From Bacteroidota bacterium (GTDB lineage Bacteria > Bacteroidota > Ignavibacteria > Ignavibacteriales > Ignavibacteriaceae), in contig JAIUOE010000002.1 of NCBI GenBank assembly GCA_020161395.1, positions 1-64,000 on the forward strand: 64,000 bases of DNA, read 5' to 3'. The position numbers and the translations under genes were made by a program. Within the stretch, counting starts at the first letter, position 1; every line of letters begins with the position of its first letter. Below the pieces are notes generated by a model. It did no database searches. It saw only the letters and a list, made by a program, of their open reading frames with translations, and was not told the origin of the DNA. Shown here one piece after another: positions 2,018 through 13,157 of the stretch.

Positions 2018-2048
2018 TACAAACCCCCTCCGTTTTTGTCAGAGGGGG
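2018..2048 (-). terminator. Rho-independent terminator after the small membrane protein gene
   Basis: On the minus strand CCCCCTC (2048-2042) pairs with GAGGGGG (2030-2024) around an 11-nt loop and is followed by a T-rich tract. It closes the unit made of the 2284-5502 cargo gene and the 2074-2268 gene. Confidence 0.75.
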
Positions 2049-2073
2049 CAGTAGATGTGAGGTTAAAAACAAT

Positions 2074-2268
2074 CTATTTTAAGGCAGCGTATGCCAGAAT
2101 TTTCATAAAAACAAGCAAAGAAACTGACGCTGCACCGAACCACGAGAGAGCACGAACAATCCTGTCCCGCTTCAACCCGCGATGGTACAGCTTGTCATAA
2201 TCGCCGTTTTTTCTGATATAGTCGCCTTTTTGCACATTCCATTTGTAATACGAATTTTCACTCATCAT
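2074..2268 (-). CDS. Small single-helix membrane protein linked to a T9SS cargo gene
   Basis: A 64-residue protein of unknown function. The polar N-terminal half carries YYKW, GDYI and YDKLY; residues about 41-63 form one hydrophobic helix including ASVSLLVF. A clear ribosome binding site (AGGAGGAG) precedes the double ATG. The gene begins 15 bp after the stop of the 2284-5502 cargo gene and is followed by a terminator, so the two form one transcript. A second copy at 8423-8614 is about 57% identical over 63 aligned residues without gaps and sits in the same place after another cargo gene. That conservation and placement make both genes real despite their size. Confidence 0.8.
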   Translation of the reverse strand: MMSENSYYKWNVQKGDYIRKNGDYDKLYHRGLKRDRIVRALSWFGAASVSLLVFMKILAYAALK

Positions 2269-2283
2269 AATATAAACTCCTCC

Positions 2284-5200
2284 TTATTTCATTAAAATCA
2301 TTTTTTTAATTGAACTGAAATCTCCTGTCTTTATCTCATAGAAATAAAGCCCGCTGGGGAGATTCTTTGCATCAAACGACACTTCGTGGTAACCTGCTTC
2401 CATCTGTCCGTTAAAAAGTGTAGCCACCTTTTCACCGAGAGTATTGAATACATTCAAAGCAACAGTTCCACTTACAGGCATCGAAAAACGAATCATTGTT
2501 GATGGATTAAATGGATTCGGATAATTCTGATACAGAGCAAAATTAGTCGGATTCAACTCCACTTCAACAACAGATGAGTACTCGGTGGTGCCATCATTGT
2601 CAATCTGTTTCAATCTGTACTGAACCCTGTTCCCGATCGCACCATTATCAACGAAACTGTAATACTTCGGTGAATTAGCCGTTCCGTGTCCCTCCACAAA
2701 ACCGATCTTCTGCCAGTTGCCGTTAGTACTTCTCTCAACCTCAAACCCGTTATTGTCAACCTCAGTCTTCGTCTCCCAATTAAGAGTGACGGTGGTGCCG
2801 GAAGATTTTGCAGTGAAGGAGGTGAGTTCCACGGGGAGGGGGGCATCACTACTGTTTGGGATGAATGCAATATTAGCCGCCAAAGTATGAGAATATTGTG
2901 TGTTGGAAGTATTGTAATCATTTCTTACATATGTAGTTCCCGATGGAGTCAGACTAATCATTCCATCCCCTGACCATGTGGCTGCATCTGTCATTCCGGC
3001 AACATAAGAAGTGATTGTTCCCCAAGCGACAGCATATAAAATATTTGATGGGGTGGATGCCTGCCTCAGTTGCAACTGTCCGGAAGTTCCCATTCCACTT
3101 GTAAAACTTTTATCCCTGGTTACAGCCACACTCCCAACAGTTACAGTAGCATTGGATGCCAAAAGATAGTATTTTCTTGAGGGAATGATCGTGGAAGTAG
3201 CGAAAGGGATATTTAGACCCGTCCCACCCGATGCAGCGAAATACTGTAATTCATATCCATTCAGGTCGAAATCGGAGTTCGTATTGTTGAAAAGTACTAT
3301 AAATTCATCGGAAGCAGCACCATAATCTACAGAAAGATGAGAAATCATTACCTGGACAGGTTGTTTGATGTAACTAAATGCTGTGCCAACATTTGTTGTT
3401 CCATTATCAAGTTGCACTTGTACACTTATTCCATCATTTGCATCAACGATTGAAGGTAGTGCTATAGTGAAAGTTGCAACTCCACTGATGTCTGTAACCG
3501 TAGTTAAATTGATGTCAGTTACAGTGACAGTTCTTGCAGTCCCGTCGATGGTATAACTTTCATCTGTTGTCGCAGTTGCATCTGTTATTGTTGCATCGTA
3601 CTTGAATGTATATCCGGATACCAGGTTATTATATTGGTCCTTCGCCGTAACGGTTACGGTTCTGGTTGTGTTCAATCCCAGTGCTGCAGATATTGTTGCG
3701 GTCGAATTGCTTGTTGGAGCACCAGCATTTATCTGCTGAGTGACAGATGCTGTTGTATAACCTGTGGCTTCAACAGTCACTAATTTGCTGCCCTCGGTGG
3801 TTAGAAGTGAATTGCCTCCCGATGGCTTTAATGTGATCATGCCATTTATCACTTCATAATCGGTCGTTACAGTCAAACCTGTCCCACCAATTTTTACTGC
3901 GGTGATTGCTGCTGTCCATGCTGCATTTGCAGAGAAAGCAATATCAATATTATTATCAACAGTGTTTGAAGAATTATCAGCAGTCAGTGTGGGAGGGCTC
4001 TTGTAAAATGTATGAGTGCTTCCAGCTGTAAAACTTGATCCAGAATTTGTCACTGTGACACTAAAAGTGAAATCTGCTGCTCCAGGAGTATCAGTACTGA
4101 TTGTTCTTAAGGTTGTCGCTGCAGCATCAACATCTGCTGTTAAAAACAAGTAAGCGGAGCCAACAGCAAAGTCGCGAGAGAAACCTGTAAAAAGCAATAA
4201 ATCTCCGGCTGTACCATCACTCAGAGAGGAGATGCTTCCGAGCTCGATATCACCAATATCCAAAGTGGCATCTGTAGAATAATAAAGCTTGAATCCCCCG
4301 CTTTGAATATCAGAAGCTGTGTAATTTCCTGATGTTGTAAACCCGGCATCTGTCATTGTCACATCTGCCCCTGTAACCGAGAGTTGAGTCCTGTAAATAA
4401 TATTTTTGGTTGTTCCAACCACGATTTGTGCCGAACCCGGGTCCGTACCTGTGAATGAAACATTAGGATCCGGACCAGAACCCACCGTTGTCTCATTTCC
4501 CACTAATTTTGATGATGTCAAATAATCCAAAGACGCACTATTATATTCATAGATCGCAACATGATAAGTAGTTCCAGCCGTTAAACCGGTTACTTCAACA
4601 GAATTCCCGGTTCCATTAAAAACAACAAAATTATTTGCTGAAGTAGTACCTCCTGATCCAAAAATTGAATTTGCTGTATAAGCACTTCCATCAACAGGAT
4701 CTCCATTAACAGCTGATCCGGATTTCATCACTACAAGTCTTTTCTCTCCGTTTCCATTAGTCCAATTTAATGTCATGGAGATACTACTAAAGGGTGAGAT
4801 AGAAAGTCCTGTTGCGGCTGAAGTTGGTTCATTCACAGAAGAATTTGCCGTCCAACCAGCCACTGGTGATAGTATTGTGTTCATCAATGTATTATTTAAA
4901 TCTCTAATCTCAATTCTCTTAACATTTGAAGTGCCATCACATACAAGACTGAAGTTACCCGAAGTTAGCTCTGTTGATGTTGCGGATAAAAGAGTACCCC
5001 CGGAGATGGCACTATAGCCTAACACAACATATCGATTTGTTAATGTATATCCCCCGATGGTACTTACATTCCCAGAAAGTGTAAATGGTGATGAGATTGA
5101 AGTAGCTGCAGGTAATACAACGGTTTGGTAGTTTGTACTATAACTTGGTCCCAATCTGTCTCTATATGAAGCAGAGGTAGTAGTGTTGTTTCCTCTTTGG

Positions 5201-5502
5201 TAAATTATCCAGAATGTTGAACTACTACTTGGTGTACCGGGAACAGAAGGTCCAGCAGAATATGTACTTGAAGAGACAAATGTCGTACCATTCCAGCAGT
5301 TATATTGATTTGTACTAAACAATCGATATTTCGCATCATTAGAGGAATAACTCGAGAGCGTCATTAATACCGCACTATATGATGTGGGGGAGCTTAAATC
5401 CACAAAAGATGGACGAAGAGTAACTGTCGCACTTTGCCCCCATCCGTCAAAGACGAGGAGCGCCGTTAAAATAATTAATGAAGAAAAGAACTTGTTAAAC
5501 AT
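2284..5502 (-). CDS. Large multidomain T9SS cargo protein (FN3, Ig-like, lamin-tail)
   Basis: A 1072-residue surface protein. Order: signal peptide (1-22, ending GWGQ); an unassigned beta domain; a fibronectin-III-like domain (about 226-340); a region of unknown type; a segment resembling the DUF1533/Shr haemoprotein-interacting fold (about 502-595); a Big1-like Ig domain (about 600-710); a lamin-tail-like domain (about 717-835); the VELTSF linker (from about 890); and the T9SS sorting domain with NYPNPFNP near 994 and the end KMILMK. A ribosome binding site AAGGAAA precedes the ATG. The best promoter (5738-5767) implies a leader of about 230 nt. An adhesin or surface-layer role is inferred, not shown. 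Confidence 0.88.
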   Translation of the reverse strand: MFNKFFSSLIILTALLVFDGWGQSATVTLRPSFVDLSSPTSYSAVLMTLSSYSSNDAKYRLFSTNQYNCWNGTTFVSSSTYSAGPSVPGTPSSSSTFWIIYQRGNNTTTSASYRDRLGPSYSTNYQTVVLPAATSISSPFTLSGNVSTIGGYTLTNRYVVLGYSAISGGTLLSATSTELTSGNFSLVCDGTSNVKRIEIRDLNNTLMNTILSPVAGWTANSSVNEPTSAATGLSISPFSSISMTLNWTNGNGEKRLVVMKSGSAVNGDPVDGSAYTANSIFGSGGTTSANNFVVFNGTGNSVEVTGLTAGTTYHVAIYEYNSASLDYLTSSKLVGNETTVGSGPDPNVSFTGTDPGSAQIVVGTTKNIIYRTQLSVTGADVTMTDAGFTTSGNYTASDIQSGGFKLYYSTDATLDIGDIELGSISSLSDGTAGDLLLFTGFSRDFAVGSAYLFLTADVDAAATTLRTISTDTPGAADFTFSVTVTNSGSSFTAGSTHTFYKSPPTLTADNSSNTVDNNIDIAFSANAAWTAAITAVKIGGTGLTVTTDYEVINGMITLKPSGGNSLLTTEGSKLVTVEATGYTTASVTQQINAGAPTSNSTATISAALGLNTTRTVTVTAKDQYNNLVSGYTFKYDATITDATATTDESYTIDGTARTVTVTDINLTTVTDISGVATFTIALPSIVDANDGISVQVQLDNGTTNVGTAFSYIKQPVQVMISHLSVDYGAASDEFIVLFNNTNSDFDLNGYELQYFAASGGTGLNIPFATSTIIPSRKYYLLASNATVTVGSVAVTRDKSFTSGMGTSGQLQLRQASTPSNILYAVAWGTITSYVAGMTDAATWSGDGMISLTPSGTTYVRNDYNTSNTQYSHTLAANIAFIPNSSDAPLPVELTSFTAKSSGTTVTLNWETKTEVDNNGFEVERSTNGNWQKIGFVEGHGTANSPKYYSFVDNGAIGNRVQYRLKQIDNDGTTEYSSVVEVELNPTNFALYQNYPNPFNPSTMIRFSMPVSGTVALNVFNTLGEKVATLFNGQMEAGYHEVSFDAKNLPSGLYFYEIKTGDFSSIKKMILMK

Positions 5503-5668
5503 GATTTTCCTTTTGCTTGTTCTTGAAAAAACCTAACCAAACCAGTGATTGAATAAGAGACATCAAAATCGCATCCAAAAAAGAATGGAAGATGACAAAT
5601 CAGATTCTGAAGAATATTGCCGGTTTATGAGCTAAAAAGAAAGTTTCTAAGCAGGAAAATTGTGTGAG

Positions 5669-5690
5669 AGGGTCCTGTTTTGGGACCTCA
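5669..5690 (-). other. Hairpin in the leader of the 2284-5502 gene
   Basis: An imperfect palindrome (GAGGGTCC / GGGACCTC on the plus strand) lies between the predicted promoter and the start codon of the large cargo gene, about midway in its leader. Confidence 0.45.
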
Positions 5691-5737
5691 TTTGTGTAGT
5701 GTTGTGTTTTTCAACGCAATTGGGAAAAGGCGTTATT

Positions 5738-5767
5738 CAAATATATAAAATTCCGGACTTATTGCAA
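5738..5767 (-). promoter_or_regulatory. -33/-7 promoter of the large cargo gene
   Basis: On the minus strand TTG (5767-5765), a 19-nt spacer and TATATTTG (5745-5738). Transcription would start near 5731, leaving a leader of about 230 nt before the ATG at 5502. Confidence 0.55.
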
Positions 5768-5804
5768 GTGATATTTTCGATATCTTAAAATTAAATTATT
5801 GTGA

Positions 5805-6112
5805 CCTGGATGGGAACACGATGGGAACACGATGGACAAGATATTACACGATGGACAGGACAGTGCCCCCGGGAATTGTCGGTTTAACTCAAAACTCTGG
5901 ACAGTCTCCCTAAAATCTCACAGAATGGAGCTCACCAAAATTATGGGGACAACCCCAAAACACAGAAGCGGTATCTTGTCTATCCTGTTTTATCCAGTCT
6001 ATCCTGTTTTATCGTGCCCATCGTGTTCCAATCCTGTCTATCCTGTAATATCGTGTCCATCGTGTTCCAATCCTGTCTATCCTGTAATATCGTGTCCATC
6101 GTGTTCCCAGCC
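5805..6112. repeat. Short-repeat arrays in opposite orientations around an IS end
   Basis: Between 5805 and 5862 the plus strand carries units of the type CACGATGGACAAGAT. Between about 5971 and 6112 the same unit runs in reverse (ATCCTGTCTATCCTGT, CCATCGTGTTCC). The two halves enclose about 100 bp that contain an IS256-type end (5886-5911). Reading frames across this stretch are translations of the repeats, not genes. Confidence 0.75.
5863..5930. mobile_element. IS256-type end remnant or internally deleted derivative
   Basis: AAAACTCTGGACAGTCTCCC is identical to the right end of the complete element at 8235-8254. On its left, GTGCCCCCGGGAATTGTC is similar to the left junction of that element. 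This fits a deleted, MITE-like derivative made of the two ends only, but a solo end is also possible. Confidence 0.5.
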
Positions 6113-6116
6113 TTAG

Positions 6117-6491
6117 TCACAAATGATTTTTATTAAAGAGACGGTGGTATTCCATTTTTGGGGTACCGAAATTTATAATCAGTCCATCTTTTGCATTGTA
6201 TGCTTCCAGATAATTAATTGCCTGAGCCAGGTGGACAGGTTCGGTAACTGATGTAGCTTTCAATTCAACCATTACTGCATCCTCAACGAAGAAATCAACC
6301 CTTCGCTCACCAATCACCTCACCTTTGTAATGAATTGGCATGGTAAATTCACGGATGAATGATATACCGGCATTCTTTAATTCAATCGCCAAAGCACGCT
6401 GATAGATTATCTCCCGAAATCCACTGCCGAGCGTTTTGTGTACACTAAGGGCACACCCGATAACCTTGTAAGTAATTTGATCAATAGTCAT
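6117..6491 (-). CDS. GxxExxY family protein (PD-(D/E)XK-like putative nuclease)
   Basis: A 124-residue protein that matches the GxxExxY family: the signature appears as GFREIIY near residues 24-30. RRVDFFVEDAVMVELKA (about 69-85) supplies the D...ExK pattern of PD-(D/E)XK enzymes, and INFG near the end is also typical. Full length for the family. DNA cleavage is expected from the fold but has not, to my knowledge, been settled for the family. The gene starts 5 bp from one short-repeat array and is followed within 60 bp by another in opposite orientation, so it sits inside an inverted-array unit. A role in mobility of that unit is inference. Confidence 0.8.
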   Translation of the reverse strand: MTIDQITYKVIGCALSVHKTLGSGFREIIYQRALAIELKNAGISFIREFTMPIHYKGEVIGERRVDFFVEDAVMVELKATSVTEPVHLAQAINYLEAYNAKDGLIINFGTPKMEYHRLFNKNHL

Positions 6492-6544
6492 ATTTTACCA
6501 AATGATAGTAGATTATCCCTGAAAATAACAAATGTGACAATAAT

Positions 6545-6800
6545 ACACAAGACGGGAACAAGACGGGAACAAGATAGACAAGATATTTCACGATGGACAA
6601 GATGGGAACAGGATACACAAGATATTTCACGATGGACAAGATATTTCACGATGGACAAGATATTTACATGATGGACAAGATGGGAACACGATGGACAAGA
6701 TGGGAACACGATAGACAAGATATTTACATGATGGACAAGATGGGAACACGATAGACTACATATTTCACGATAGACTAGATATTTCACGATGGACAAGATA
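6545..6800. repeat. Degenerate tandem array, 14-bp core GATGGACAAGAT type
   Basis: About twelve units with the core CACGATGGACAAGAT, joined by two alternating linkers (ATTT or GGGAA), giving periods of 19 or 20 bp. The orientation is opposite to the arrays at 5971-6112 and 8292-8368. There are no unique spacers, so it is not a CRISPR array. It ends where the IS256-type element begins. Confidence 0.8.
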
Positions 6801-6870
6801 ATGCCCACAAAAGGGAGTGTCAGTAGTTTTGTGTAATTGGTAGAAATGTATAGTTTGGGAAGGAGCCCAG

Positions 6871-6892
6871 TTCCACCCCCGAGGGGGTGGAA
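6871..6892. repeat. Strong hairpin in the IS leader
   Basis: TTCCACCCCC and GGGGGTGGAA form a near-perfect 22-bp palindrome between the left IS end and the transposase start. It may limit read-through transcription from outside into the transposase gene, as hairpins near IS ends do elsewhere, or be an inserted palindrome. Confidence 0.55.
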
Positions 6893-6964
6893 ATGGGGGC
6901 GAAAAAGTACCCTGTTTTCCTTTCCCCTTTTTTATCCATTTTATCAATTAATTTCGGAGAATTT

Positions 6965-8191
6965 ATGAAGCTCACAAAAGAAGCTATTGACCAACTGCAA
7001 AAAGACCTCGCCGGTGCTAAAACATATGAGGATCTCATGGGGAAGAACGGTGCCATCAAGAACCTCATGAAGCATGCCCTCGAATCAATGCTCGATGCCG
7101 AACTCTCAGATCACCTCGGCTACGAAAAGCACTCCCCCGATGGTGATAACTCAGGTAACTCCCGCAACGGGAAATCCAGGAAGACAGTCAAGAATGATCA
7201 GGGCAAGATCGAGATCGAAGTTCCTAGGGACAGGAATGGATTGTTTGATCCAGTCGTTGTCAAAAAGTACCAGACAACCGTCGGTCCGATAGAAGACAAG
7301 ATCATCTCGATGTACGCCAAGGGGATGACCGTCAGGGATATCCAATCCCACCTGGAGGAAATTTACGGGCTCGATGTCTCACCTTCTTTTATCTCAACCG
7401 TTACCGACAAAGTTGTCGAATCGGCTAAGACCTGGCAAACCAGACCCCTGCAAAAAGCCTATGTCTTTGTCTTCTTCGATGCAATCCACTACAAGGTCAA
7501 GGAAGACGGTAAAGTCCTCACAAAAGCCGCTTATACGGCTCTGGGAGTCAATCCTGAAGGAAATAAGGAACTTCTCGGGATTTGGATCGGTGATTCTGAA
7601 TCAGCCTCCTACTGGCTCTCAGTATTCAATGAGATCAAGACAAGGGGTGTCGAGGATATCTTTGTCGCCTCAGTGGACGGGCTCAAAGGGCTGGTTGATG
7701 CCATCAATATTGTCTACCCGGAATGCAGGGTGCAAAGGTGTATTATCCATCAGATCAGGTACTCCACAAGGTTCATTCCGGAGAAGTTTAGAAAAGAGTT
7801 CCTTAAAGATCTTAAATCAATTTACAATGCCGTCAATGAAAAGTCTGCTCAGGCTGCTCTCGGTGAGCTTGAACAAAAATGGGGACAGAAGTACTCTCAG
7901 ACTCTTAAGTCCTGGAGGGCGAACTGGGACTCTCTTTCAGTGATGTTCGAGTTTCCTCAGGAAATCCGGAAGGTTATCTACACTACCAATGCTGTGGAGG
8001 CTCTGCACAGGTAATTCAGGAAGGTTACTAAATCGAGTACCATTTTCCCTAACGATGATGCTTTACTGAAAATGTTGTATCTTGCCTATCGTGACATGTC
8101 GAAAAAGTGGACTATGATACTTAGAGACTGGAAAACAATTATCTCTCAACTCTGTATTATCTTTGGAGAGAGATTTGAAAAATATCTGTGA
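6965..8191 (+). pseudogene. IS256-family (Mutator-type) transposase, interrupted by a stop codon
   Basis: The frame would encode 408 residues, the normal length for the family. It starts at the ATG at 6965 after GGAG. The three DDE residues can be placed: D in VFFDAIHYKV, D in ASVDGLKG and E in TTNAVEALHR. Directly after LHR a TAA (8012-8014) replaces the glutamine codon usual in LHRQFRK, and the same frame continues for 59 residues (FRKVTKS..., LYLAYRD..., ending at the TGA 8189-8191). A single C-to-T change therefore explains the break. The truncated 349-residue product keeps all catalytic residues but lacks the C-terminal helix region, so it is probably inactive. Confidence 0.85.
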
Positions 8192-8291
8192 TTGCGCACA
8201 GGGTGCGCAATCAGTTGGTTCTACTCATTTACACAAAACTCTGGACAGTCTCCCACAAAACTTGGGGGTTTACCTCAAAATTCGGGTGCCG

Positions 8292-8368
8292 TATCCTGTC
8301 CATCTTGTTTTATCGTGCCCATCGTGTTCCAATCCTGTCTATCCTGTTCCAATCCTGTCTATCCTGTC
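8292..8368. repeat. Reverse-orientation short-repeat array right of the IS
   Basis: Units of the type CCAATCCTGTCTATCCTGT and CCCATCGTGTTCC, the reverse complement of the array at 6545-6800. Together they flank the IS as inverted arrays, as at 5805-6112. Confidence 0.7.
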
Positions 8369-8369
8369 T

Positions 8370-8400
8370 AAAAAAGCCCGCAAATCTTTCGAAGTGCGGG
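8370..8400 (-). terminator. Rho-independent terminator after the second small membrane protein gene
   Basis: On the minus strand CCCGCA, a 12-nt loop and TGCGGG are followed by CTTTTTTAG. It ends the transcript of the 8641-10980 cargo gene and the 8423-8614 gene, the same arrangement as at 2018-2048. Confidence 0.8.
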
Positions 8401-8422
8401 TTCAATCTTTTTTCAGGAGTTG

Positions 8423-8614
8423 TCAGTTCCAGGCGGCGTACGACAATATCTTGATGAAAACCAGAAGCGATACCGAGGCAACACCCAACCATGTGAGTTT
8501 GCGTACCAGTTTCTCTCTTTTTCTGTTTTTCAGATAAAGTTTATCGTATTCTGAATTGTCGGCGATGTAATCACCGCTCTTGACATCCCAGTTGTAATAT
8601 TGATTTTGTTTCAA
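8423..8614 (-). CDS. Small single-helix membrane protein, second copy
   Basis: The second member of the small membrane family (see 2074-2268): YYNW, GDYI, YDKLY, then one helix with ASVSLLVF and KIL. I place the start at a TTG (8614) because it has an AGGA site 6-7 nt upstream and because the product then aligns end to end, 63 residues without gaps, with the first copy. A GTG at 8644 overlapping the upstream stop would add ten residues but has no ribosome binding site. It lies 26 bp after the stop of the 8641-10980 cargo gene and before a terminator. The function is unknown; an inner-membrane helper of a specific cargo type is a guess from position. Confidence 0.75.
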   Translation of the reverse strand: MKQNQYYNWDVKSGDYIADNSEYDKLYLKNRKREKLVRKLTWLGVASVSLLVFIKILSYAAWN

Positions 8615-8640
8615 ATCTGTCCTTTTAGCATTTATTAAAA

Positions 8641-10980
8641 TCACTTTATTAAAATCATTTTTTTTATCGAACTGAAATCTCCAGCCTTTATCTCGTAGAA
8701 ATAAAGTCCGCTGGGGAGATTCTTAGCGTCGAACGACACTTCATGGTAACCGGCTTCCATTTGTCCGTTAAGAAGTGAAGCCACTTTTTCCCCTAGCGTG
8801 TTGAAAACATTCAGAACTACATTTCCATTTACCGGCATCGAGAAACGGATTATCGTCGATGGATTAAATGGATTGGGATAGTTCTGATACAACGCAAATG
8901 TTGTGGGATTAAGTTCCACTTCCACTTCAGGTGAGTACTCAAATGTACCATCATTGTCGATCTGTTTCAGTCTGTACTGAATTTTATTCCCGATCGCACC
9001 ATTGTCCACAAAACTGTAATACTTCGGAGAGTTCGCAGTTCCGTGTCCCTCAACAAATCCTATCTTGTCCCAGTTTCCTGAGACATTCCGTTCAACCTCA
9101 AAACCGTTGTTGTCAACTTCGGTCTTCGTCTCCCAGTTAAGGGTGACAGTCGAACCTTTAGCAGAAGCTGTGAAAGAGGTAAGTTCGACGGGAAGGGCGG
9201 TAGGCTCTCCACCTGTAAAATCAGAGAAAGAGGTCAGACCTGATGCAGTTAAAAAGTTTGATGTTGTATTGACAGTGCTGGCAGGTTGACTCCAACCGGT
9301 TCCGGCAGAAAACTTTCCAAGTTTTAAGTTCGCCTCATTAGCAGGTTCAGAAACATCAGCGTCAACATAATAGAATTCCACATCATAATTTGGCGAAGTT
9401 ATGCCGGAGGGAGTCAGAGTCCAGTATCTGTTTAAGAAAAGTGTACCGGGTCCTTTTTCCGGATGAGAGGTGTTCTTAACTTTCACACCGACATAAGCGG
9501 ATGAAAATGTTCCCGAATTTATAAGTAAAGTTACTGGAGAATATTCAACTGTGCCTGAGTTATCTCCCACAGGGAAAGTAAAAATGTCGGGAGCGGTAAA
9601 TACTTTCCGTAATTCGCCTCCACCACTAGCTATTATCATCTTGGTAGCCGAGGGTGAAGTAATGCTGAGACTGGTTAGTGTAAGATTGTTTGACCCAAGG
9701 TCCAAATTTCCCAAGGTCATATCAACCGTTGTTGCCGTAGTTGATTGGCTTAAAGTCACACCGGATGAATTGTTAATCTTTAATGTACCTGAAATGTTCG
9801 TCGGCAATGATGGGCCAGTTACCTGAGCACTAACCCCACTATACTCATAAATCCCACCAAAATTGTAAGTTCTGGTTCCTGTAACTTGAATATTTCCCGT
9901 GGAAGGAACATTAGATATACCATCAGGTGAACCTATTTTAAGGGTAGCTCCAGATGCTAAAGAAAAGGCTCCTGCACCGGTTACGGTATCTGTACCACAA
10001 TCAAGCGTCCCATTCACTGTCAAGGTACGACTAGTTGCAATAGGTAAATTGTTGTTTAATGTTAATGATTTCGAAGTGTTAACAGCCCAATTAATTCGAG
10101 TATTGGTTAATGTGCCAGAAGAAAATGTAAACTGTGACGAGGCACCATTAAAATTAATAGTACTCACGGTTGAATTCGCCAACAATGTTCCGCCACTAAT
10201 AGTCAAATTACCACCTATATTTAGGGTGCCAGCACCCGTAGAATTTGCAAGATCCAGAGTTCCTCCCGAGAGGAGTACATTTCCGGTTACTGCCATATCC
10301 ACTGTTGAAGAGCCACTCGAAAAATAAAATAAGCCACCCTCCACGGCCAGATTACCTCCTACAGTCACAGACTTGTTACCTGCTGAAGCTACAAGAGCAT
10401 GTCTAAAAGATCCACCACCCGTGGCTTTCACTGTAAGATTTCCTTGGACAGCAGTTAGGTTACCACCCCATCCAAAACTAGCGGCTGCACTTCCAACATT
10501 GATAATGAGATTGCCATAACCACTCCCACCAGGTGCTGAAGTTCCGGAAGGGTTAGCCTTTAACTCTATTGTACTACCGGAAGAGAAACTCTCTGTTCCT
10601 TGAAATAAAGTGGAACCAAGATTAACCGCTATATTAACAACACAGTTACTTCCATTATCCATCTGAAAAGTTGTGGCAGCAGCAAGTGTCACCGTGTGAC
10701 CTATAGTCAGCGTCCCCCCATCTTCGATCCAAAGTTTGCTATTAGTTCCGGAGATCGTCCAGGTATTGGATGTCGTCATATTATGACCGTTCTGAATCAC
10801 AAAAACATCACCGCTAGTGAAATTACCGGGAGTTGTTGGGCTGCCTAAACCATCTCGTGTCGATTTCCAGTTTGCGAGTGTGTTGGGAGCTACACTTCCC
10901 TGTGAATAATATGTAGCTGTCCACCCCTCAAAAGCGAGCAAAGATGTTATAAAAAGAAGTAAAGTAATATGTCTAAACAT
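8641..10980 (-). CDS. T9SS cargo protein with adhesin-like repeats
   Basis: A 779-residue surface protein. The ATG at 10980 has GGAGAG just upstream and begins a clean signal peptide (MFRH..., ending near EGWTA); a longer reading to 11037 would bury the signal. Residues about 30-500 are rich in G, S, T and N with short beta-repeat units (GTLT, GNLT, SGGTL), like beta-solenoid adhesins. The VELTSF linker starts near 595 and the T9SS sorting domain near 700, ending KMILIK. The linker and sorting domain closely resemble those of the 2284-5502 protein. Its leader region shares about 140 bp with that of the 11686-13044 gene. The small membrane protein gene follows. Confidence 0.87.
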   Translation of the reverse strand: MFRHITLLLFITSLLAFEGWTATYYSQGSVAPNTLANWKSTRDGLGSPTTPGNFTSGDVFVIQNGHNMTTSNTWTISGTNSKLWIEDGGTLTIGHTVTLAAATTFQMDNGSNCVVNIAVNLGSTLFQGTESFSSGSTIELKANPSGTSAPGGSGYGNLIINVGSAAASFGWGGNLTAVQGNLTVKATGGGSFRHALVASAGNKSVTVGGNLAVEGGLFYFSSGSSTVDMAVTGNVLLSGGTLDLANSTGAGTLNIGGNLTISGGTLLANSTVSTINFNGASSQFTFSSGTLTNTRINWAVNTSKSLTLNNNLPIATSRTLTVNGTLDCGTDTVTGAGAFSLASGATLKIGSPDGISNVPSTGNIQVTGTRTYNFGGIYEYSGVSAQVTGPSLPTNISGTLKINNSSGVTLSQSTTATTVDMTLGNLDLGSNNLTLTSLSITSPSATKMIIASGGGELRKVFTAPDIFTFPVGDNSGTVEYSPVTLLINSGTFSSAYVGVKVKNTSHPEKGPGTLFLNRYWTLTPSGITSPNYDVEFYYVDADVSEPANEANLKLGKFSAGTGWSQPASTVNTTSNFLTASGLTSFSDFTGGEPTALPVELTSFTASAKGSTVTLNWETKTEVDNNGFEVERNVSGNWDKIGFVEGHGTANSPKYYSFVDNGAIGNKIQYRLKQIDNDGTFEYSPEVEVELNPTTFALYQNYPNPFNPSTIIRFSMPVNGNVVLNVFNTLGEKVASLLNGQMEAGYHEVSFDAKNLPSGLYFYEIKAGDFSSIKKMILIK

Positions 10981-11096
10981 ATCTCTCCATTGTTTATTTG
11001 TGGATAAATATTTAAAATTTACATGAAAAGGTAACATCGGCTGTTTTAAGCAAATGTTAAGAAATGGTGTTTATGCCTGAAGAAAGAAGGAAAAAG

Positions 11097-11685: not shown

Positions 11686-13044
11686 TCACTTCATTAAAAG
11701 CAATTTTCTGATCGCGATGAACTCTCCTGCACTGATCCTGTAGAAATATGGGCCGCTCGGAAGGGCTGCAGCATCGAAGGAGACTTCGTGAAAGCCGGCT
11801 TCCATCTGTCCGTTTAGTAGAGTTGAGACCTTCTCACCCAATGAGCTGAAGACATCGATCGTCACCAAACCGGCAACGGGTAGTGCGTAACGGATAACGG
11901 TTGCGGGATTGAACGGATTTGGATAATTCTGATATAACGCAAATGTTGTGGGTTTCAGTTCCACTTCCACCACAGGCGAGTACTCAAATGTACCGTCATT
12001 GTCAATCTGACGGAGTCTGTACTGAATTTTATTCCCGATTGCACTATTGTCCACAAAACTGTAGTACTTCGGCGAGTTCGCAGTACCGTGTCCCTCAACA
12101 AATCCGATCTTGTCCCAGTAACCGTTTGTGCTTCTCTCCACCTCAAATCCGTTGTTGTCAACTTCGGTCTTTGTCTCCCAGTTCAGGGTGACAGTAGATC
12201 CCTTCGCGGATGCTGTGAAGGAGGTCAATTCAACAGGCAGGATGCTTGTGGCTGTATTCGAATACACAAAATCGTCAAGAAAAATATTTGCAACATTACC
12301 TGTACTTGACTCACCGTAGAACATAAACGAATCCATATTCGCATTATTACCGATTCCCGCTTTTGCTAACTCATTTCCGACAAGTACTCCGTTAACCCAT
12401 AGATCATATTTATTTGCTGCGACGGTACCCGTACCGTAATCCATTGTTACAGCCGAGTTATTGGCAACTATATCAACTAAATAGTTATTTCCTTGCGCAA
12501 ATGGGGTGCCAGTTATACCGGTTGTTACCCAATTGCTACCAGTCCTTGTATTTGTGGTGATCGCACCACTTGCGCCAAATGTAAATCTCAATCCGACAAA
12601 AGTCTGAGTTCCGTCAAAAGAGGCAGTACTACTAAAAGTAGTTCCATCACCTAAAAAGAAAAACCAAATGCCACTTGCAGGTTCAGAATTGCCACTCGAA
12701 TTACCAAATCGCACTCTAAAGTTAAGCGTTGCAAATTTACCGGGTGTATAGTCGTAAATCGCAAATTTGTTTACAGACCCTGATGAAGAAGCTACACCTC
12801 TAAGACATGACCCTGTGCTAAACCCGCTAATGGTTGCTTGTGAATTAAAACTACCAGCAGCGGCGCCAATACGAATGTACCTGCTGCCACCACCTGTTTG
12901 CGGTGCCGGGGGGAATGTGGTATTGGTTCCAGCAGTGGTAATGCTCCAAACTTCAGTTCCAAAATTATAACTCCACGGTTGCCCCAACCCGTCAAATTCG
13001 AGGAAGGTCGTTATAAAAAGCATAAAGCCAATATGTTTAAACAT
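11686..13044 (-). CDS. T9SS cargo protein with lectin-like N-terminal domain
   Basis: A 452-residue surface protein. The ATG at 13044 follows AAAGGAGAG and starts a signal peptide (MFKH..., ending near GLGQ). Residues about 25-255 look like a concanavalin/LamG-type beta-sandwich (WFFFLGDG, FVGLRFTFG, YDLWVNGVLVG). The VELTSF linker is almost identical to that of the 8641 protein up to NYPNPFNP; after it the sorting domain diverges sharply (PATVIRYALP, DVFSSLGEKVS, end KLLLMK). No small membrane protein gene follows. Carbohydrate or surface binding is a plausible role from the fold, but I cannot confirm it. Confidence 0.87.
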   Translation of the reverse strand: MFKHIGFMLFITTFLEFDGLGQPWSYNFGTEVWSITTAGTNTTFPPAPQTGGGSRYIRIGAAAGSFNSQATISGFSTGSCLRGVASSSGSVNKFAIYDYTPGKFATLNFRVRFGNSSGNSEPASGIWFFFLGDGTTFSSTASFDGTQTFVGLRFTFGASGAITTNTRTGSNWVTTGITGTPFAQGNNYLVDIVANNSAVTMDYGTGTVAANKYDLWVNGVLVGNELAKAGIGNNANMDSFMFYGESSTGNVANIFLDDFVYSNTATSILPVELTSFTASAKGSTVTLNWETKTEVDNNGFEVERSTNGYWDKIGFVEGHGTANSPKYYSFVDNSAIGNKIQYRLRQIDNDGTFEYSPVVEVELKPTTFALYQNYPNPFNPATVIRYALPVAGLVTIDVFSSLGEKVSTLLNGQMEAGFHEVSFDAAALPSGPYFYRISAGEFIAIRKLLLMK

Positions 13045-13157
13045 ATCTCTCCTTTGATTTTTTGTGGATAAATAATTAAAATTCATATAAAAAAATAACA
13101 GTTGCAGTTTTTGCAATTGTTAGGAATGGGTGTTTTGCCCGCAGAAGATGGGAATAG

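Follow-up and report, generated by a model that had tools for sequence, protein, structure and literature searches.

Small putative membrane proteins with an invariant motif in Ignavibacteriales, one branch of which is often encoded behind cargo genes of the type IX secretion system

Small single-helix inner-membrane proteins of the CydX and AcrZ kind adjust larger partners, and the SprF-like proteins of the type IX secretion system (T9SS) are larger outer-membrane proteins. Partner genes directly behind T9SS cargo genes have been described for type B cargos, namely SprF-like genes in pairs such as SprB-SprF and Fjoh_3952-Fjoh_3951, often with one partner per cargo, and in Flavobacterium johnsoniae 9 of the 12 type B genes adjoin a SprF-like gene, with orphans also existing (PMC12618676, PMC9143113). 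Here we analyse a 64,000-nucleotide stretch of DNA (hereafter the window; positions 1 to 64,000 of contig JAIUOE010000002.1, assembly GCA_020161395.1) from a bacterium of the family Ignavibacteriaceae, in which two genes for proteins of 63–64 aa with one predicted helix each follow a different T9SS cargo gene. The two belong to a family which shares an invariant motif and is not tied to secretion as a whole, many members of one branch diverging in step with the 3′ ends of the cargo genes that precede them.

Small gene 1 begins 15 bp and small gene 2 begins 26 bp past the stop codon of the preceding cargo gene, and the two proteins are 56–59% identical in three alignments, all of them gapless. 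An initial annotation made from the sequence alone had listed two one-helix small genes about 57% identical, gaps of 15–26 bp and terminators just after the small genes, all of which is borne out (the hairpins are given in Table 1). The placement directly downstream of a cargo gene is shared with PorP/SprF. Unlike PorP/SprF, the small proteins match no family of that kind in Pfam or NCBIfam, are about 64 aa long with one helix and are predicted to lie in the inner membrane with the N-terminus inside. The window cargos carry the type A sorting domain, not type B: Por_Secre_tail exceeds its curated cut-off of 27 bits in the cargos at 2284-5502 and 8641-11037 (41.4 and 38.0 bits), as does TIGR04183, which is named type A (36.0 and 36.1 bits against 23), and CHU_C, which we take to be linked with type B cargos, stays below its cut-off. 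We do not place the small proteins in PorP/SprF, as the protein family, the predicted membrane and the cargo type all differ, and regard it as the nearest precedent for the arrangement; a need of the small protein for secretion of its cargo would be a further, hypothetical parallel with SprF. The type A sorting domain (Por_Secre_tail, PF18962/TIGR04183) is a feature of the upstream neighbour in the cargo branch and not of the small protein itself.

The window proteins and a few relatives belong to no Pfam or NCBIfam family, the best scores lying far under the cut-offs. This sets them apart from the CydX and AcrZ kind, which they resemble in size and topology and in which we know of no comparable motif. 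Searches with a 26-row family profile or with the window proteins and a few relatives gave no match in PHROGs and a best E-value of 0.12 against PDB sequences, and our literature search brought up no account of a small protein with one helix acting as a partner of T9SS cargos. No match was obtained among viral contigs with family alignment A5, nor among plasmids with small protein 1. A search of genome contigs gave 3 loci, which lie in two genomes covered before. The profile detected members in 33 of 80 Ignavibacteriaceae genomes (47 had no match at an E-value of 0.001) and, across the order Ignavibacteriales, in 86 of 164 genomes, with up to 38 candidates scored in each. In a phylum-wide draw of 395 genomes, with the best 15 candidates per genome scored, there were matches in 26, of which 24 lie inside the order. 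The other two, from another class, are N-terminal tails of PBP1A-like proteins lacking the tryptophan of the motif, and were judged to be false, chance matches because PBP1A-like proteins from four genomes of the order do not contain the motif. Members are also carried by the named near relatives Chlorobiota bacterium CHB2 and Ignavibacteriaceae bacterium SB14. These predicted one-helix membrane proteins are thus an undescribed family, known so far from this order alone.

The hallmark of the family is the motif W-x-[IV]-x-x-G-D-[YF], after which x-R frequently comes. In 140 members, aligned by a loose form of the motif pattern and without the two fragments of a split copy, W and G are present in all 140, D in 139 and Y or F in 139. 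The pattern is rare outside the family: of 139 hits across open frames totalling 1.38 million residues, four were in non-members, and control frames contained two more. For the two window genes, paired with a same-genus genome, dN/dS is 0.11 and 0.05; it is 0.06–0.11 in five of seven other pairs (three same-genus orthologue pairs and two within-genome near-copy pairs) and 0.24 and 0.33 in the remaining two, from another family of the order. The small proteins are constrained, being under purifying selection, and are therefore more than chance frames. A putative ribosome-binding site was found at 21 of 40 cargo-linked members as against 28 of 101 others.

Eight members have an extra N-terminal piece, with the pattern [LI]PxxWW in seven of them. 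In the long variants of about 120–145 aa (L151, L156, L177 (two), L180, L187, L189) this piece precedes the common motif and helix; two long variants were scanned and gave no Pfam match.

The tryptophan of the motif lies 26–38 residues (median 30) ahead of the most hydrophobic window, whose hydropathy is at least 1.6 in 138 of the 140 members and which is followed by a median of 3 residues. Lysine and arginine average 6.0 in the 15 residues before the helix and 0.6 after it, the N-terminal side being the richer one in 140 of 140. A structure model from five sequences (mean pLDDT 73) contains a helix at residues 22–63, residues 1–16 being unstructured and of low confidence. From these features we infer a tail-anchored inner-membrane protein oriented N-in, its motif lying in the cytoplasm and hardly any residues outside, and the conserved motif appears to resemble a docking peptide. 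The predicted cytoplasmic location of the motif argues against anchoring at the cell surface.

Gene neighbourhoods were surveyed at 142 places from 123 stretches including the window, using simple longest open frames as gene calls. The survey took in the stronger listed matches, both pieces of one frameshifted copy and near-copies from related genomes, so that the counts are not independent events. Forty places follow a sorting-domain gene, either directly or behind another member, with steps of at most 250 bp. The remaining 102 were not scored as lying behind a cargo gene, and at 5 of the 142 the upstream side is beyond the contig end. Another 38 places adjoin lptB or the gene that usually stands beside it. 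At most of these the small gene has a gene for an aldehyde dehydrogenase on one side and lptB, in convergent orientation, on the other; two long variants counted here are only near an ABC ATPase gene. Twelve places are ahead of a NagK-AmpG operon, and the others are at acs (6), an MTA-phosphorylase-like gene (5), rsmB (4), a histidine kinase/chloride channel group (7) or unassigned genes (30). The initial annotation had proposed a profile search for homologues lying directly after cargo genes, and had taken homologues mostly away from such genes as a refutation of its unit. Over the whole family most places do lie away from them, so that the unit is refuted at this level and the family in general has no tie to secretion. 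Sugar transferase (Bac_transf) neighbours, with 7 in about 1.2 Mb of loci and 1 in 0.4 Mb of control, were considered as a further association and found not convincing.

The link with cargos resides in one part of the family. A tree of the 140 members splits weakly into branches of 61 and 79 (SH-aLRT 76 on 63 columns), with the window's small proteins in the former; members of the latter stand at recurrent places unconnected with secretion. An upstream same-strand sorting-domain gene, at any distance and with other members skipped, is found for 42 of 61 members in the first branch and 3 of 79 in the second, and any sorting-domain neighbour for 49 of 61 and 5 of 79, respectively. The cargo label requires 14 changes on the tree as against 35.1 in shuffles, with 0 of 500 shuffles as low, near-copies contributing to this difference. 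Cargo-linked copies occur in nine genera of Ignavibacteriaceae and are mostly grouped together. In genomes of this family, 29 of 88 members stand directly behind a sorting-domain gene within 120 bp, compared with 2 of 48 in one and 1 of 6 in the other of the order's two remaining families. Of the 323 genes in preset control stretches of the source genome, which span 400 kb and include 25 sorting-domain genes, 13 have a sorting-domain gene at most 120 bp ahead of them and 7 at most 40 bp ahead; none of these followers is a family member. In 23 of 34 directly adjacent pairs the gap is at most 24 bp (longest-frame starts), which suggests co-transcription of the small gene with the cargo.

Across 31 pairs of cargo and small gene, the more alike two small proteins are, the more alike are the C-terminal 185 residues of their cargos (r = 0.70; reached by 0 of 300 within-genome shuffles), and within genomes the correlation is r = 0.68, reached by 1 of 300. 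The bodies of the followed cargos are diverse. Of the 34 such cargos 27 were scanned, omitting four near-duplicates and the three linked to the other branch; PF18962 is present in 25 of the 27, an Ig-like hit (FlgD_ig) in seven and every other listed family in one to three. Likewise, the N-terminal parts of the two window cargos are unrelated (best BLASTP E-value 0.22), while their sorting domains are 91% identical, confirming what the initial annotation had noticed. In many cargos the sorting domain is preceded by a module of about 95 residues (LxWxTxTE ... YRLKQIDxDG; alignment A4), which is 79% identical between the window pair and is carried by 31 of the 34 followed cargos. As the small protein and the cargo 3′ end diverge in step behind diverse N-terminal parts, these three elements (module, sorting domain and small gene) together have the behaviour of a 3′ cassette, placed behind unrelated bodies in nine genera.

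Neither of the two cargo elements determines the presence of the small gene. The module was found at 40–90 places per genome in nine Ignavibacteriaceae genomes searched and at 2–3 in two sister-family genomes; its profile was built from followed cargos, so the ranking is biased. It occurs in 1 of 26 sorting-domain frames of a preset 400-kb sample of the source genome and in 7 of 10 in the window. Of its 62 places in the source genome, 3 have a small gene and 59 do not, which makes it a preference and not a determinant. The subtype of the sorting domain was rejected too, since a domain 45–47% identical to those of the window pair has a small gene and one 66–67% identical (383-1813) has none. 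In a tree of 80 sorting domains, 31 of them followed by a member, the label requires 14 changes as against 24.8 in shuffles, i.e. it is clustered but does not form one clade. The unit of sorting domain and small protein suggested at first is thus retained as regards co-divergence with the cargo 3′ end and is dropped as regards a deciding subtype. Four examined genomes without any family match have 40–68 module places each. Since the small gene is lacking at 59 of the 62 module places of the source genome and in 47 of the 80 Ignavibacteriaceae genomes, these four among them, a general requirement for export or anchoring is excluded, leaving a cargo-specific accessory role or hitchhiking.

We tentatively favour an accessory role, in which a single partner, cytoplasmic or in the inner membrane and common to the family, would use the motif as its docking peptide, and each small protein would tether that partner to the membrane. 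Cargo-linked copies would be made together with a particular cargo, and in the cargo branch the partner would act while the cargo is being made at the inner membrane, i.e. on synthesis, on Sec export or on the regulation of that export, rather than at the outer-membrane step. In its fullest form, which we consider unlikely as a whole, the proposal is that of order-wide tail-anchored docking proteins presenting the invariant WxIxxGDY to one shared partner, one branch being a cargo-matched inner-membrane companion of type A cargos inherited as a 3′ cassette. Several points weigh against the tether: the two branches separate with little support and the counts are raised by near-copies, the variety of neighbours could reflect several unrelated functions, 47 of 80 Ignavibacteriaceae genomes have no match, though the four of them that were examined are rich in cargos bearing that module, and the partner, its binding and the membrane insertion are predicted, with co-transcription read from the gaps. 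Nearly as plausible as the tether is hitchhiking, whereby the family would serve a cell function unrelated to secretion and a few ancestral copies that landed behind cargo genes would be copied along as a cassette whenever 3′ ends are duplicated or shared. It is favoured by the 102 of 142 places away from cargos, by the module places and genomes which lack the small gene and by the occurrence of module and sorting domain on unrelated N-terminal parts, and joint duplication would by itself give co-divergence. Against it are the recurrence of the tight-gap pairing in nine genera and the purifying selection on a terminal small gene that could easily be lost; the grouping of cargo-linked copies on the tree (14 vs 35.1 changes) also counts against it, though hitchhiking fits that grouping too.

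A dedicated T9SS helper or anchor, as initially suggested, is supported in part but seems improbable to us. Its helix and outer end would contact the cargo or the inner-membrane T9SS motor, like a small counterpart of SprF; the gene order indeed copies the SprF rule of a partner directly downstream of the cargo (PMC12618676), and the co-divergence and the existence of a cargo branch agree with such a role. Despite that, a median of 3 residues past the helix window leaves little outside, the motif is predicted to be cytoplasmic and occurs unchanged in members with no cargo gene nearby, the window cargos are of type A, and all but 3 of the 62 module places do without a small gene. Membrane-active toxin-like or stress peptides in the style of type I toxins are likewise small, one-helix and multicopy and often stand away from a shared operon, but the cytoplasmic part with its invariant motif, the recurrent neighbourhoods and the placement behind cargo genes make this origin very improbable. 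If the fullest form of the tether is true, the cargo-matched branch would supply T9SS cargos with a dedicated partner in the inner membrane, the first that we know of. A motif family following type A cargo tails through divergence and duplication would indicate that these cargos pass an inner-membrane step not yet recognised. Even under hitchhiking, the family would be a widespread undescribed microprotein and a clean testable case, and the motif should have a partner.

The features of the window are collected in Table 1. The TTG start of small gene 2 fits, because in a same-genus genome (L076) the frame of a near-identical copy is likewise without an ATG. The hairpin after this gene has a z-score of -2.5, is matched by 5 of 200 shuffles that fold equally well and is absent from the pattern-scan list. 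The true start of the cargo at 8641-11037 is probably further in, at MFRHITLL. Its first about 38 residues are related to those of the third cargo (58%, E-value 5e-13), behind which TBLASTN yields only matches with E-values of 2–4 for a small gene, so that the initial description of this cargo as having a diverged sorting domain and no small gene stands. In the window cargos the FlgD_ig match overlaps the sorting domain, and no Pfam match is listed over the module.

Table 1 Features of the window discussed in the text
Feature	Position	Strand	Remarks
Terminator-like hairpin (intrinsic) after small gene 1	2023..2049	-	Pattern scan and fold test
Small membrane protein 1 (predicted), 64 aa	2074..2268	-	ATG start; motif KWNVQKGDY, then basic stretch, then one C-terminal helix
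T9SS type A cargo, 1072 aa, precedes small gene 1	2284..5502	-	Module about 2557-2823; sorting domain about 2296-2523
PDDEXK_3 gene	6117-6491	-	Between first cargo and small gene 2
Mutator-family transposase frame (PF00872)	6887-8014	+	Between first cargo and small gene 2; last part of profile missing
Terminator-like hairpin after small gene 2, then T run	about 8377-8400	-	Fold test
Small membrane protein 2 (predicted), 63 aa	8423..8614	-	TTG start at 8614; inside longer frame 8423-8644
T9SS type A cargo of at most 798 aa, precedes small gene 2	8641..11037	-	Module about 8914-9180; sorting domain about 8653-8880
Third cargo, no small gene behind	11686..13116	-	Module 11959-12225, 80-84% identical; sorting domain 68% identical

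The source genome (G000, 4.07 Mb) contains five intact family members and one split by a frameshift. In addition to the window pair, a third small gene is linked to a cargo: a protein of 1771 aa, bearing the sorting domain 45–47% identical to those of the window pair, is encoded 16 bp ahead of it. The three further copies, the split one included, stand away from cargo genes. The split member (L007:6629-6837; G000 C1:532646-532827) lies ahead of acs and reflects either decay or a sequencing error, the copy at the same place in a same-genus genome (L079) being intact. The T9SS cargo set of the source genome is very large, with at least 150 sorting-domain places at an E-value of 0.01 (233 candidates).

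In L076 the two cargo-small gene pairs are separated by 374 bp in which no gene was called, and for this reason the transposase region between the two pairs of the window is probably a later insertion in which decay has begun. Three intergenic stretches around the transposase and behind small gene 2, at 5960-6120, 6540-6800 and 8290-8370, contain imperfect short repeats of the kind 'gtccatcgtgttcc / tatcctgt'.

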